Assembly (NCBI GenBank): GCA_021827365.1
Contig: JAKAWK010000006.1
Location: forward strand, 1-37,459
Direction: 5' to 3'
From: Nitrospirota bacterium
GTDB lineage: Bacteria; Nitrospirota; Leptospirillia; Leptospirillales; Leptospirillaceae
Length of the DNA: 37,459 bases
This document shows, one piece after another, positions 3,160 through 14,057 of this stretch. The notes under the pieces are model-generated. The model was not told the origin of the DNA. It searched no databases and worked only from the letters and a program-made list of their open reading frames with translations. The position numbers were made by a program, and so were the translations under genes. Every line of letters begins with the position of its first letter. Positions within the stretch are counted from its first letter, which is position 1.

Positions 3160-3585
3160 ATGAAGCCGATCGAATGGCGCGTGGATACCTGCGCCACGCC
3201 GGAAGCGCTCTGGAGGATCTGGTCCGATGTCGGAAACTGGCCCCGGTGGGACCATGGGATCGAGTGGGCCCGTCTGGAAGGCCCCTTCGAGGAAGGAACC
3301 GCCGGCCGCCTCAAGCCGAAGGGCGGCCCCGAAGTGCCGTTCGTTCTCCTTTGGGCCGACCCCGAACGGGGCTTCTCCGACGAATCGCGGCTTCCGTTGG
3401 GCCGGCTGAGGTTCGAGCACCGTTGGCGCCCCCTTGAGAACGGGCGGATCGAGATTGTCCATCGGGTCAGCTTCCATGGCCCTATTGGATTTCTGTATGC
3501 ATTTCTCATGGGACCTTCCTTCAGGAGGGATCTTCCGAAGGCCATGGAAACCCTGGCCCGGATGGCCGAAGGGGGCTCTTCGTGA
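3160..3585 (+). CDS. SRPBCC (START-like) family protein
   Basis: The 141-residue protein fits the size of a single SRPBCC hydrophobic-pocket domain. It opens with the typical pattern of a first strand followed by PEALWRIWSDVGNWPRWDHGI, the family's W-x-x-W element, and ends with a long amphipathic helix (about residues 115-138). Such proteins bind small hydrophobic ligands and some are cyclases or aromatases. No catalytic role can be assigned. It is the first gene of a three-gene overlapping operon with the EVE-domain and MarR genes. Confidence 0.75.
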   Translation: MKPIEWRVDTCATPEALWRIWSDVGNWPRWDHGIEWARLEGPFEEGTAGRLKPKGGPEVPFVLLWADPERGFSDESRLPLGRLRFEHRWRPLENGRIEIVHRVSFHGPIGFLYAFLMGPSFRRDLPKAMETLARMAEGGSS

Positions 3586-4034
3586 AGACGCCGGAAGGCT
3601 CCCGGCGCTTCTGGATCGGGGTGGCGAGCCGAGACCATGCGATGCAGGGAGTTGTCGGCGGCTTTGCGCAACTCTGTCACGGCAAGGCGACCCCCCTTCT
3701 CCGGATGGTCCCGGGAGACGGCCTGGTCTATTACTCTCCCCGGGAGCGGTTCGGGGAGAGCGCGCCCTGCCAGCGCTTCGTGGCCATTGGACGGATCACG
3801 GGAAGCGCGGTCTATCCGTTCGACATGGGCCGGGGATTCGTTCCCTTCCGGCGGGATGCCGCTTACGTTCGGGGCGCCGTCGAGGCCCCGGTCCGGCCCC
3901 TTCTTCCCCTTCTGACGTTCGTCCGGGACCCTGCACACTGGGGGGCGGTCTTTCGCTTCGGATTCCTGGAGATCACCTCCTCCGACTTCTCGAGGATCGC
4001 CCGGGCGATGGAGGTTTACGATGAGCGGGTTTGA
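3582..4034 (+). CDS. EVE domain protein (UPF0310 family)
   Basis: The 150-residue protein matches the UPF0310/EVE pattern: WIGVASRDHAMQGV at residues 11-24, GGFAQLCHGKATPL at 26-39, and PGDGLVYYSPRE at 44-55. EVE domains are PUA-like folds thought to bind modified nucleobases in DNA or RNA. The start is a GTG at 3582 in a GTGA overlap with the previous stop, so translation is likely coupled. The presence in a MarR-controlled operon suggests a stress-responsive rather than a restriction role, but this is inference. Confidence 0.8.
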   Translation: MKTPEGSRRFWIGVASRDHAMQGVVGGFAQLCHGKATPLLRMVPGDGLVYYSPRERFGESAPCQRFVAIGRITGSAVYPFDMGRGFVPFRRDAAYVRGAVEAPVRPLLPLLTFVRDPAHWGAVFRFGFLEITSSDFSRIARAMEVYDERV

Positions 4035-4476
4035 CTGGACGAAAAGCCGGTTCGAAAAGGCCGAAGACAGTCCGGGATTGCTGCTATGGCAGGTCAGTTC
4101 CCGATGGCGCCGCATGATCGAGCAAACCCTTGCCCCCTTCGACCTGACCCATCCCCAGTTCGTCGCGCTGGCGTCGATCGCCTGGCTCGGGCGGAACGGA
4201 TCCCCGATCAGCCAGGCCGACGTGGCCCGCCACATGAAACTGGACGTCAATACCGTCTCCCAGGTTCTGAGGTCCCTCGAGAAAAAGGGGCTGATCGAAC
4301 GCAGACGGTCCCCCGACGAACGCGTCCGGAGTCCTGTGCTGACGGAAGTGGGCATCGAGCGCCTCGACCGTTCCCTTCCGGCCGTCGAAACCGCGGACCG
4401 GCAATTCTTCGGAGCGCTGGAGCGGGACCTTCCGGATCTTGTCCGATCTCTCCGGGTTCTTCTCCGGGAGGAATAA
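4021..4476 (+). CDS. MarR family transcriptional regulator
   Basis: The protein has 151 residues. The winged helix covers about residues 35-105: FDLTHPQFVALASIAWL, then SQADVARHMKLDVNTVSQVL as the recognition helix, then ERRRSPDERVRSPVLTE as the wing. The start at 4021 overlaps the EVE gene by 14 bases. It is the last gene of the operon that begins at 3160 and is the best candidate to bind the palindrome at 3117-3126. The gene is convergent with the next one. Confidence 0.85.
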   Translation: MSGFDWTKSRFEKAEDSPGLLLWQVSSRWRRMIEQTLAPFDLTHPQFVALASIAWLGRNGSPISQADVARHMKLDVNTVSQVLRSLEKKGLIERRRSPDERVRSPVLTEVGIERLDRSLPAVETADRQFFGALERDLPDLVRSLRVLLREE

Positions 4477-5928: not shown

Positions 5929-5961
5929 CGGCACTCCTCCTGAACTCGCATGAATTCCATG

Positions 5962-5979
5962 AGTTAGCGATCGATAACC
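5962..5979. promoter_or_regulatory. Second copy of the TetR operator core
   Basis: This 18-base stretch shares 17 consecutive bases, GTTAGCGATCGATAACC, with the palindrome core at 7619-7636. It lies across the last codons of the hydrolase gene and 34 bases before the start of the SRPBCC gene at 5928. The placement fits an operator controlling the SRPBCC/lactonase pair by the TetR protein at 6976-7611. The match is visible in sequence; the binding is inferred. Confidence 0.65.
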
Positions 5980-6986
5980 TTCCGGCCAAAATTTTTTTGG
6001 TCTTGCCCGGCCTGGCCGGTCATGCTGACCCCCATCTCTTTCATCAAGGCCGCGAATCGCCCCGGCTCTTCGTAGTGCGGCATGTGGGCGGAAGACTCGA
6101 ACCACAACAACATCTTGCCTTCCGGCGCATCAAGGAGATCGAAGTAGCGCCGGGTCAGGAGACCCGGTGCGACCTTGTCGTGTCGACCTTGAACGAGAAT
6201 GATGGGGACATCGAGTTTGGGGGCCTGTTGAAAAAGATCCAGATCCTTCATCGCGGGAAGAAGGGCGTCCTGCACGGCGGAGAGTCCTCCGAGCGCCCGG
6301 AACGCCTCTTTAACGGAGTAGTCCGGCGAGGAAAAAAGACGCCAGAGATTCTTGAGTAAGAGCGACCCGTATCGCTCGGTGCGGTGGATGGCTCCGAACG
6401 CCGTCATCCACTTCGCCCGTTCCATAAAGGGCGCGCTCCTCGCATACGGAGGATCTCCAAGTTTTCCGAGGACTCCGAGGGCTTTCTTGTGATTTCGCCG
6501 TATCGCCTCCTGCCACAGAAAGTCCTGGGCCATCGGCTCGCTTTCCGCAAGACAGATGTCCGACCCGACTCCTATGAGTGCATGGACTCCCTTCGGAGAA
6601 CGCCGTGCCGCAAGAACGGACAGGCTGGCTCCGAGAGAAAATCTGAGCAGTGAAAGCTCCGAGACTTCCAGTCGTTCGAGGAGAAAATCGATCACCTCCC
6701 GGATATCGAGCACGAGCCTCTCCAGAGGCGCGTCTCCGAAAGAGACGTCCGGATGGGAGGATTTTCCGCATCCCCGCATGTCCCAGTAGACGACCCGGTA
6801 GGCGTCTTCCCATCGCAAGCGCTTTTGCAGGGCGTCCACCTCGTGAATGATGGGAAATCCTGGTCCAGCCTGGAGAATCAAAAGAACCGGAAGGTCGCGT
6901 CTCCCACCCCTCACGAGAACCCATTGGCGATCGTTCCCGATGGACACACGTTCAAGAAGTCGGACGGATGTACTCTTATTGGCCAT
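5964..6986 (-). CDS. Alpha/beta hydrolase, prolyl-aminopeptidase-like
   Basis: The 340-residue protein has an oxyanion-type segment QAGPGFP (39-45), the family motif YWDMRGCGKS (67-76), and a nucleophile region RFSLG with Ser117. A likely acid is in VQGRHD, and the His is in SAHMPHYE near the carboxyl end. This arrangement fits the prolyl iminopeptidase/proline-type hydrolase group. The nucleophile elbow reads R-F-S-L-G, where the first position is normally Gly, which is unusual. The start overlaps the tetR stop by 11 bases, so the two form an operon. Substrate unknown. Confidence 0.8.
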   Translation of the reverse strand: MANKSTSVRLLERVSIGNDRQWVLVRGGRRDLPVLLILQAGPGFPIIHEVDALQKRLRWEDAYRVVYWDMRGCGKSSHPDVSFGDAPLERLVLDIREVIDFLLERLEVSELSLLRFSLGASLSVLAARRSPKGVHALIGVGSDICLAESEPMAQDFLWQEAIRRNHKKALGVLGKLGDPPYARSAPFMERAKWMTAFGAIHRTERYGSLLLKNLWRLFSSPDYSVKEAFRALGGLSAVQDALLPAMKDLDLFQQAPKLDVPIILVQGRHDKVAPGLLTRRYFDLLDAPEGKMLLWFESSAHMPHYEEPGRFAALMKEMGVSMTGQAGQDQKNFGRKVIDR

Positions 6987-7611
6987 CTCTTTTCTCTATT
7001 CCTTTTTGAACGAGAGCCCGGAGCAGAAGATCTTTGATCTCGTCCTGCCATTGGATCGCCGGCGGATCGCACTCCCGGAAATACAGCATCCGGGCAAACT
7101 GCCCCAGAAAACCGATGGTCAGCGTCACCAAAAGCCCGGTGGTTCCCTCCGGGTCGACCACCCCTTCGGATTTTCCTTTGCCGATCCAGTCGGCCAACAG
7201 TCCGACCAGAGGAAGAGCTCGCGTTTTCTCGTCGACATGGGGCCAATAGAGACGCAGATTTTCGTGGACGTAAAGGACGGAATCGAGACTTTTGTCAAGG
7301 AAACGGACATAAAACTCCACCAAAGCCTCCAGGTCCTCCTGGAACGAATGGCCCGGAGAGAGGGCCTGAGCGACCCCCCGGACCAATTCGCCATAGCAGC
7401 GCTCGAAGAGGTGGATCGCAAGGGCGTCCTTGCTTTCGAAAAACTTGTACAGCACCGTATTGCTGTATCCCGTGGCATTTGCAATATCCCGGAGGCTCGT
7501 TTCGCATAGCCCGTCACGGACAAACAGGCGCAAGGCCTCCCGGAGAATGGCCTGCTTCGAGGGAGGCTCGTCGGGAGATACCGGTGAAAAGGAGGAGTTT
7601 ACCGATCGCAT
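6976..7611 (-). CDS. TetR family transcriptional regulator
   Basis: The 211-residue protein has a helix-turn-helix at about residues 20-65: ILREALRLFVRDGLCETSL, then IANATGYSNTVLYKFFESKD. The carboxyl domain is helical and suited to a small ligand. A near-perfect 30-bp dyad begins two bases before its start codon, the usual place for an autoregulatory operator, and a second core copy precedes the SRPBCC/lactonase pair. It overlaps the hydrolase gene downstream. The likely regulon is therefore tetR-hydrolase plus SRPBCC-lactonase. Confidence 0.9.
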   Translation of the reverse strand: MRSVNSSFSPVSPDEPPSKQAILREALRLFVRDGLCETSLRDIANATGYSNTVLYKFFESKDALAIHLFERCYGELVRGVAQALSPGHSFQEDLEALVEFYVRFLDKSLDSVLYVHENLRLYWPHVDEKTRALPLVGLLADWIGKGKSEGVVDPEGTTGLLVTLTIGFLGQFARMLYFRECDPPAIQWQDEIKDLLLRALVQKGIEKRDGQ

Positions 7612-7612
7612 G

Positions 7613-7642
7613 CTTCAAGGTTAGCGATCGATAACCTTGAAG
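7613..7642. promoter_or_regulatory. TetR autoregulatory operator (30-bp palindrome)
   Basis: Bases 7613-7642 form an inverted repeat in which 14 of 15 base pairs are complementary; the only mismatch is at 7624/7631. The core GGTTAGCGATCGATAACC is at 7619-7636. The site lies immediately upstream of the tetR start codon at 7611. The 240 bases further upstream, to 7885, contain no recognisable gene. Confidence 0.8.
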
Positions 7643-7885
7643 TCAAGGGAAATCCCGTCCTTTTAATCTTCGACTTTTTTGCGAAGGACAGCATGGGTCA
7701 AGGGGACGAGCTTGTTCATTCGGCCAGGAATGGATCGATCATTCATAGCTTATACGTAGGAAATTTGATCCTTATTTGTGGAATCCTATAATTCTCCGCA
7801 TAATCTCATTATGGGATCTTCCTTACTGCTAAGGTCGGAAGAGAATGAGTGTGCAGGGTTCCCTCCCCGATCCGTCCCGTCAGAT

Positions 7886-11082: not shown

Positions 11083-11529
11083 CTATTCGGGAGCTTTCTC
11101 GATCCGTTCTTTCAAGGCCCGGTTCATGGACGCAAAGGCCTCCCGGACCGGTTCCCGGATCCGGGCCAGAAGCGTTCCCGCAAGAAGGCCGGAAAAATCT
11201 TCTCCATGGGTCAACGCTGTCCGCTCCGGACCCAGGGGGTCGATCCGGAAATAGTGCTCCCCATCGAAGAGTCCCGGAACGACTAGGCGCCCGCGCCAGC
11301 GGAACTCCCTTCCCTCCTCGGCCACCAGCACCGTCGGACGGAAGGTCATAGCCTTTCTCCCCGGAAGCGTCATCGTGACACGGAGGACTCCTCCTTTCAT
11401 GGAGGTGCCGGATATTTCCCTGATGAACGGATTCCAGAGTGGATAGTCCGGAAAATCTAAAAGGACCGACCAGACCTGCTTCGGGGTGGCCGAGATCTCG
11501 ATTTCCGTCATGATTTGGTGAAGAGCCAT
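11083..11529 (-). CDS. SRPBCC family protein
   Basis: The 148-residue protein has IEISATPKQVWSVLLDFPDY near the start, then LWNPFI, RWRGRLVVPGLFDGEHYF in the middle, and an amphipathic helix at the end, the SRPBCC single-domain layout. It is the third SRPBCC protein of the window and is closest in pattern to the one at 5467-5928. The start at 11529 has AAGGA upstream; an in-frame ATG six codons later is an alternative. It probably shares a transcript with the DUF4188 gene upstream. Ligand unknown. Confidence 0.75.
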   Translation of the reverse strand: MALHQIMTEIEISATPKQVWSVLLDFPDYPLWNPFIREISGTSMKGGVLRVTMTLPGRKAMTFRPTVLVAEEGREFRWRGRLVVPGLFDGEHYFRIDPLGPERTALTHGEDFSGLLAGTLLARIREPVREAFASMNRALKERIEKAPE

Positions 11530-13779: not shown

Positions 13780-14057
13780 TCCACCCCCTCGGGGCCAAGA
13801 ATGACCCCGAACTCGACACCGGATTCAAAATTGAGTGTCGTGTTGACGATGTCGCTCCTTTCGTCCAGACACTCCATGAACGGACAGACCTCTTCGAAGG
13901 CTGTAAACATGTTGTCGGCCACGATGATCGATCCGGCCTTCAGGAGAGGGTCCACTTTTTTGAAAATTTCGAGATATCCGTTGGCCCAGATATCGTAATA
14001 GTCCAGGTCGAAACGACTACCTTCCTTGAAGGGGTATAGAATGCTGAGGTTGACCAA
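13776..14057 (-). pseudogene. Chimera of EthD-type start and O-methyltransferase end
   Basis: The 93-residue ORF starts with TTG at 14057, with AGGAGA upstream. Its first 20 or so residues, VNLSILYPFKEGSRFDLDYY, match the EthD-family amino terminus. From DIWANGYLEIFKKVDPLL onward it reads as the carboxyl third of a class I O-methyltransferase: SIIVADNMFTAFEEV, then a final strand pair. Neither half is complete: the methyltransferase lacks its SAM-binding part and EthD lacks most of its barrel. The simplest reading is a deletion that fused two genes in frame. Confidence 0.6.

Follow-up and report, generated by a model that had tools for sequence, protein, structure and literature searches.

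The nearest precedents for the locus studied here are the systems of AcuR and QsdR. According to the accessible part of the report on it, AcuR of Rhodobacter sphaeroides is a TetR-family autorepressor encoded by the first gene of its own operon, acuR-acuI-dddL, the cargo of which serves acrylate/DMSP catabolism (PMC3017554). Its inverted-repeat operator (TAATAGAC-n6-GTCTATTA) overlaps the promoter, and the message begins at the ATG of the repressor gene and has no Shine-Dalgarno sequence there, with the downstream genes being translated better; this leaderless design is backed by 5'-end data (PMC3017554). As far as the accessible part of that paper goes, AcuR uses a single operator, and a test for internal promoters found none. 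QsdR of Rhodococcus erythropolis is described, in the accessible part of its report, as a TetR-family repressor of a lactonase operon, the repression of which is lifted by a lactone, and qsdR and qsdA are arranged divergently (PMC6262395).

The cassette described here comes from a Nitrospirota bacterium and lies in the window, by which we mean the whole stretch of 37,459 nucleotides that was analysed. Its layout resembles that of the AcuR system in that a tetR gene is the first of its own operon, an inverted repeat overlaps the predicted promoter and, if TAACNT is the -10 element, the message would begin at or next to the ATG of the predicted repressor. Unlike the AcuR operon, the window cassette contains a second candidate operator with a promoter-like frame inside the operon, and this second site is present in ten of ten tetR loci. 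As both copies of the site are kept in related bacteria, the self-contained switch looks real but fairly ordinary in kind, with a two-operator layout that appears tidy and conserved.

Results

The four genes of the cassette lie on one strand, separated by short gaps or overlapping, in the order tetR, hydrolase, SRPBCC and metallo-beta-lactamase-fold (MBL) hydrolase (Table 1). Judged by its helix-turn-helix domain and its modelled all-helical fold, the tetR product is a member of the TetR/AcrR family: the N-terminal TetR_N domain (PF00440, residues 22-66) scores 40.9 bits against a cut-off of 24, and the AlphaFold2 model (pLDDT 88.5) has nine helices in the all-helical two-domain TetR fold. The model has 449 PDB matches at E<=0.001, and the best 50 of these 449 are nearly all TetR-type regulators. 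The best Foldseek matches include KstR2 (4w97), at a TM-score on the query of 0.74, and Bacillus FadR (5gp9), at 0.67, but these two share only 16-20% identity with the window TetR, which scores far below the cut-off of the NCBIfam FadR/FasR families. The likeness to KstR2- and FadR-type folds hints weakly at a hydrophobic ligand; neither the FadR/FasR family scores nor the identity of these fold matches supports an acyl-CoA ligand, and no PDB match of the window TetR is labelled as QsdR.

Table 1. Features of the tetR cassette, its two candidate operator sites and its predicted promoters (positions in the window).
Feature	Position	Strand	Basis and details
tetR, TetR/AcrR-family regulator, 211 aa	6976..7611	-	Pfam TetR_N 1.7e-10; AlphaFold2 model; orthologs
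Alpha/beta hydrolase, 340 aa	5964..6986	-	Pfam Abhydrolase_1 3.2e-12; overlaps the end of tetR
SRPBCC (START-like) ligand-binding-fold protein, 153 aa	5467..5928	-	Pfam Polyketide_cyc2 4.1e-14
Shine-Dalgarno AGGAGGAG of the SRPBCC gene	5934..5941	-	Sequence
Metallo-beta-lactamase-fold hydrolase, AiiA/AttM-lactonase-like, 283 aa	4591..5442	-	Pfam Lactamase_B 6.5e-24
Site A, 16-bp core GTTATCGATCGCTAAC (- strand)	7620..7635		Inside the 30-bp dyad 7613-7642; same place in 10/10 tetR loci
Site B, 16-bp core identical to that of site A	5963..5978		Ahead of the next gene after tetR/hydrolase in 10/10 loci and in G016
Predicted promoter PA	7618..7646	-	-35 TTGACT 7646-7641, 17-nt spacer, -10-like TAACCT 7623-7618
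Predicted internal promoter PB	5961..5998	-	-35-like TTGGCC 5989-5984, 17-nt spacer, weak -10-like TAACTC 5966-5961

The hydrolase resembles proline iminopeptidase-type enzymes. In an alignment, its nucleophile elbow (residues 115-119) reads RFSLG in the window species and G005 and GFSLG in L045, L046 and L049, and because Arg replaces the Gly of these loci, the hydrolase may be impaired or disabled. The MBL protein was called a lactone-type hydrolase in an earlier note on this DNA. This holds as a family resemblance, with intact zinc motifs (HFHTDH at 112, GHTPGH at 192) and AiiA as the best PDB match (1e-16), but not at the level of the curated lactonase families, since the NCBIfam AttM match (1.7e-24) reaches 86.7 bits against a cut-off of 390 and the AiiA match 80.3 against 375. 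The protein resembles AiiA/AttM lactonases, yet at scores so far below the cut-offs it can be called only a putative AHL lactonase. QsdA is a phosphotriesterase-like enzyme and not an MBL-fold protein.

Sites A and B have 19 nt in common (GTTAGCGATCGATAACCTT; 5963-5981 and 7620-7638), the sole exact 19-mer direct repeat in the whole window, and the self-complementary word CGATCG lies within their core. The earlier note had put the two identical copies in the right places, and their identity extends beyond the 17 bases it gave. Its 30-bp dyad with one mismatch at the tetR start was recovered at 7613-7642 (14/15 pairs), ending 1 bp ahead of the tetR start codon (7611-7609), as was the position of the other copy at the 3' end of the hydrolase gene before the SRPBCC/lactonase pair: the hydrolase stop codon TAA (5966-5964) falls within site B, and the SRPBCC start (5928) follows about 35 bp on. 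The genome-wide motif scan proposed there, run with GTTAKCGATCGMTAAC at 0 or 1 mismatch over the 2,250,753 bases of the genome (86.8% complete), matched sites A and B only. In 200 simulations with a first-order Markov model of the window, any 19-mer repeat arose in two and a 30-bp dyad of at least 14/15 pairs in none, while the window has one of each. Pairing of the outer arms of the dyad reaches 14/15 at site A in the window and in its near-identical relative G005 but nowhere else; the other sites pair at 6-12/15, among them site B of the window at 8/15. As the arms are not conserved, an extended 30-bp (double-dimer) operator was rejected, and on sequence comparison it is the 16-bp core, not the 30-bp dyad, that is the conserved and predicted functional unit.

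Orthologs of the window TetR (41-100% identical) were found in nine other genomes, one of them apparently of another phylum. They occur in 7 of the 21 genomes of the family, the window's included, in two genomes from a different family within the phylum and in one Acidiferrobacter assembly, a genus that we take to belong to the Pseudomonadota, a phylum other than that of the window. At E<=1e-20, orthologs were detected in 9/395 genomes of the window's phylum, again including the window's, and in 1/369 genomes of the class of G061, namely Acidiferrobacter itself. Most of the recognition-helix region, GYSNTVLYKFF, is conserved among them. Spread of tetR by plasmids was considered and rejected, with a single weak match, covering 42%, among 72,556 plasmid records.

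Ten tetR loci were read (the window, L045-L052 and L057); since G000/G005 and G003/G010 are near-duplicates, they amount to about eight independent loci. All ten have site A 7-8 bp ahead of tetR and site B ahead of the following gene. Over the eight non-redundant loci, the core has a mean information of 1.59 (A) and 1.55 (B) bits per column, compared with 0.30 and 0.56 upstream. Site B is also kept in G018, G026, G043 and G061, whose loci lack the hydrolase, so its conservation cannot be put down to hydrolase coding. The most diverged site B is that of L057, and the Acidiferrobacter site B fits the consensus only at 3 mismatches and is missed at 1. Before the loci were read, a pattern made from the window only had, among the matches listed, both sites of G001, G003, G010 and G018 and one site of G015, also at the tetR locus. 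Site A is palindromic, overlaps the predicted promoter of tetR itself and is conserved with tetR. The conservation of the paired sites together with the tetR ortholog lends good support to an operator shared by both places, to a single TetR acting on it and to a local regulon, and both sites A and B are very likely to be operators.

Across nine genomes, the consensus GTTAKCRNNYGMTAAC gave 19 matches at <=1 mismatch, 18 of which are the two tetR-locus sites of each genome, compared with 10 matches for a reversed control pattern. The sole stray match is at G010:C120:5630-5645, with 1 mismatch. The Acidiferrobacter genome has one match to the consensus (site A) and two to the control, and the consensus is missing from all 21 loci that belong to other TetR proteins. 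In the 14 genomes of the family in which no tetR ortholog was detected, the consensus matched 4 times and the control 11 times, i.e. without excess, as expected. The only exact match among these 14 lies in G016, which was not among the genomes from which the consensus was made, between an ortholog of the hydrolase and an SRPBCC gene, with TTGACC in front of it. Here, the aligned stretch of the hydrolase contains one in-frame TGA and the MBL gene is broken; no clear tetR was seen on the contig, which starts 190 bases before the hydrolase match. The presence of the consensus at the tetR loci is partly circular, because it was drawn from them; its absence elsewhere and the finds made with the window-only pattern are not.

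Each core is framed by a TTG-type -35 element and, 17 nt away from it, a TAAC-type -10 element. At site A, TTG is present in 10/10 loci, TTGAC in 8/10 and TAACNT in 10/10, and at site B, TTG is present in 9/10, TTGAC in 5/10 and a TAnnnT -10 in 3/10, and these elements are preceded by an A/T or T tract; in the window, this A/T tract (5998-5988) lies ahead of the -35-like element of PB. A sigma-70 scan over this region picked up neither of the two predicted promoters. The tetR start codon follows TAAC by 8 nt in nine of the ten loci and by 7 nt in L057; if TAACNT is the -10, this spacing would leave a leader no room, and a PA transcript would begin at the tetR ATG or within 1-2 nt of it. Going by this layout, site A probably marks an autoregulated promoter, from which a leaderless tetR message would continue into the hydrolase gene, and site B probably a second repressed promoter within the operon, for the SRPBCC and metallo-hydrolase genes. 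We do not claim a general terminator at site B, because the ten loci have no common hairpin there; a GC-rich stem close before a T-tract was seen only in two f7 loci (L051, L052).

Only tetR and its two sites are constant across the loci, and of ten window proteins searched, tetR alone matches all ten. In the window's genus, site B is followed by SRPBCC and MBL genes (with MBL truncated in G003 and G010). In G015 and G018 it precedes SRPBCC together with a Methyltransf_24-type gene, in G043 a gene resembling NAD-dependent epimerases and in G026 the beginning of a gene similar to that of G043; in Acidiferrobacter, MBL comes directly behind it. The hydrolase has no match in the loci of G018, G026, G043 and G061 and is split over two frames in G003 and G010. 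The four-gene regulon proposed earlier fits the window species, G005 and G001; other loci have lost or damaged the hydrolase or carry a different cargo behind site B. To judge from the sequences of G003/G010 and G016, the enzyme genes seem to degenerate earlier than the switch.

Discussion

We think it likely that TetR is an autorepressor with two operators, repressing PA (tetR-hydrolase) and PB (SRPBCC-MBL) until an inducer releases it. The two sites, their conservation and their placement are observed, and from these we infer how binding and repression would proceed. At site A, between the -35 and -10 elements of PA, TetR would block tetR and the overlapping hydrolase gene; as the PA message would start at the tetR ATG, tetR would be translated leaderless and weakly. 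At site B, placed likewise within PB where the hydrolase gene ends, TetR would block the SRPBCC and metallo-hydrolase genes, which appear to have strong ribosome sites. The inducer would release both sites and would most likely be a substrate of the enzymes or a relative of it, perhaps a lactone, an ester or another hydrophobic compound. A point against repression as the mode of action is that TetR-family proteins can also activate. Because its gene overlaps tetR and would be cotranscribed with it, the hydrolase would be regulated via site A and not via site B. The earlier idea of one regulator for the hydrolase, the lactone-type hydrolase and the ligand-binding protein agrees with the conservation of the sites alongside tetR, although site B would act on the SRPBCC and MBL genes only.

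Site B could instead serve as a roadblock or looping partner, with all four genes on one PA transcript and the repressor either stopping read-through or looping to site A. The arrangement of the four genes on the same strand with overlaps or short gaps and the poor -10 of PB would fit this, as would the AcuR operon, for which the accessible part of the report gives no internal promoter (PMC3017554). We nevertheless regard it as unlikely, given that the TTG at the -35 position and the preceding A/T tract are conserved at site B and that the local promoter-like layout is kept while the A-to-B distance ranges from 651 to 1657 bp between loci. With such variation no fixed loop geometry is kept, and DNA looping by fixed spacing was rejected.

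The remaining alternatives dispense with TetR as the protein that binds. Another regulator might bind the sites, such as a second TetR or the nearby MarR, whose gene (4021-4476) adjoins the cluster and whose orthologs are located close to it in G001, G003, G005, G010 and G015 (42% in the latter); this is very improbable, as the stretches from G018, G026, G043 and G061 hold no MarR or second-TetR match and tetR is the one protein that matches every locus. Scarcely credible is a genome-wide palindrome (an interspersed repeat, a methylation or HIP1-like site) or a chance repeat: the CGATCG in the core is self-complementary and some 19-mer repeat did appear in 2/200 simulations, but the genome has two copies only, and these track the tetR ortholog across genera and into the assembly of a different group.

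Returning to the autorepressor with two operators, a broader and more tentative reading, which we would favour somewhat less than its negation, is that the conserved unit is a regulatory frame: tetR, a leaderless promoter before it and a promoter with the same operator behind it, with exchangeable enzyme genes, shared by Nitrospirota and Acidiferrobacter and presumably answering one chemical signal. The sites are kept while the cargo varies, and this suggests which genes respond to a shared signal. For an uncharacterised TetR, the analysis predicts an operator, with good support, along with a two-site regulon, and the prediction can be tested directly with two 16-bp sites and one protein. The hosts, which we take to be of the Leptospirillum group, look like relatives of iron-oxidising acidophiles, and little was found in open-licence PMC papers on their TetR regulation. 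In the same literature we found no published report of this operator, and 14-letter strings of the core matched only one unrelated human SNP paper. AHLs were reported from Leptospirillum ferriphilum in 2025 (PMC12654047); the accessible part of that paper does not link them to the TetR studied here, and that of a review on quorum sensing in extreme environments (PMC4187201) holds nothing bearing on this TetR.

Several minor observations were made around the loci. At L046, L048 and L093, the operators stay though the hydrolase is split and MBL truncated in G003/G010 and MBL is interrupted in G016. On the - strand of the window, 13797-14012 encodes a C-terminal methyltransferase remnant (residues 165-236 of 236) like the gene after SRPBCC in G015 and G018, and a full-length match to this methyltransferase is present at 10286-10993 of L045. 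Yet another SRPBCC protein is encoded at 11083-11529 (- strand); it shares 43% identity with that of the cassette, and its gene lacks the operator. Lastly, a convergent cassette of overlapping genes for a second SRPBCC, an EVE-domain protein and the MarR regulator occupies 3160-4476 on the + strand, and genes that look like this cassette by eye (MarR also by tblastn) lie near tetR at 8531-9847 of L049.
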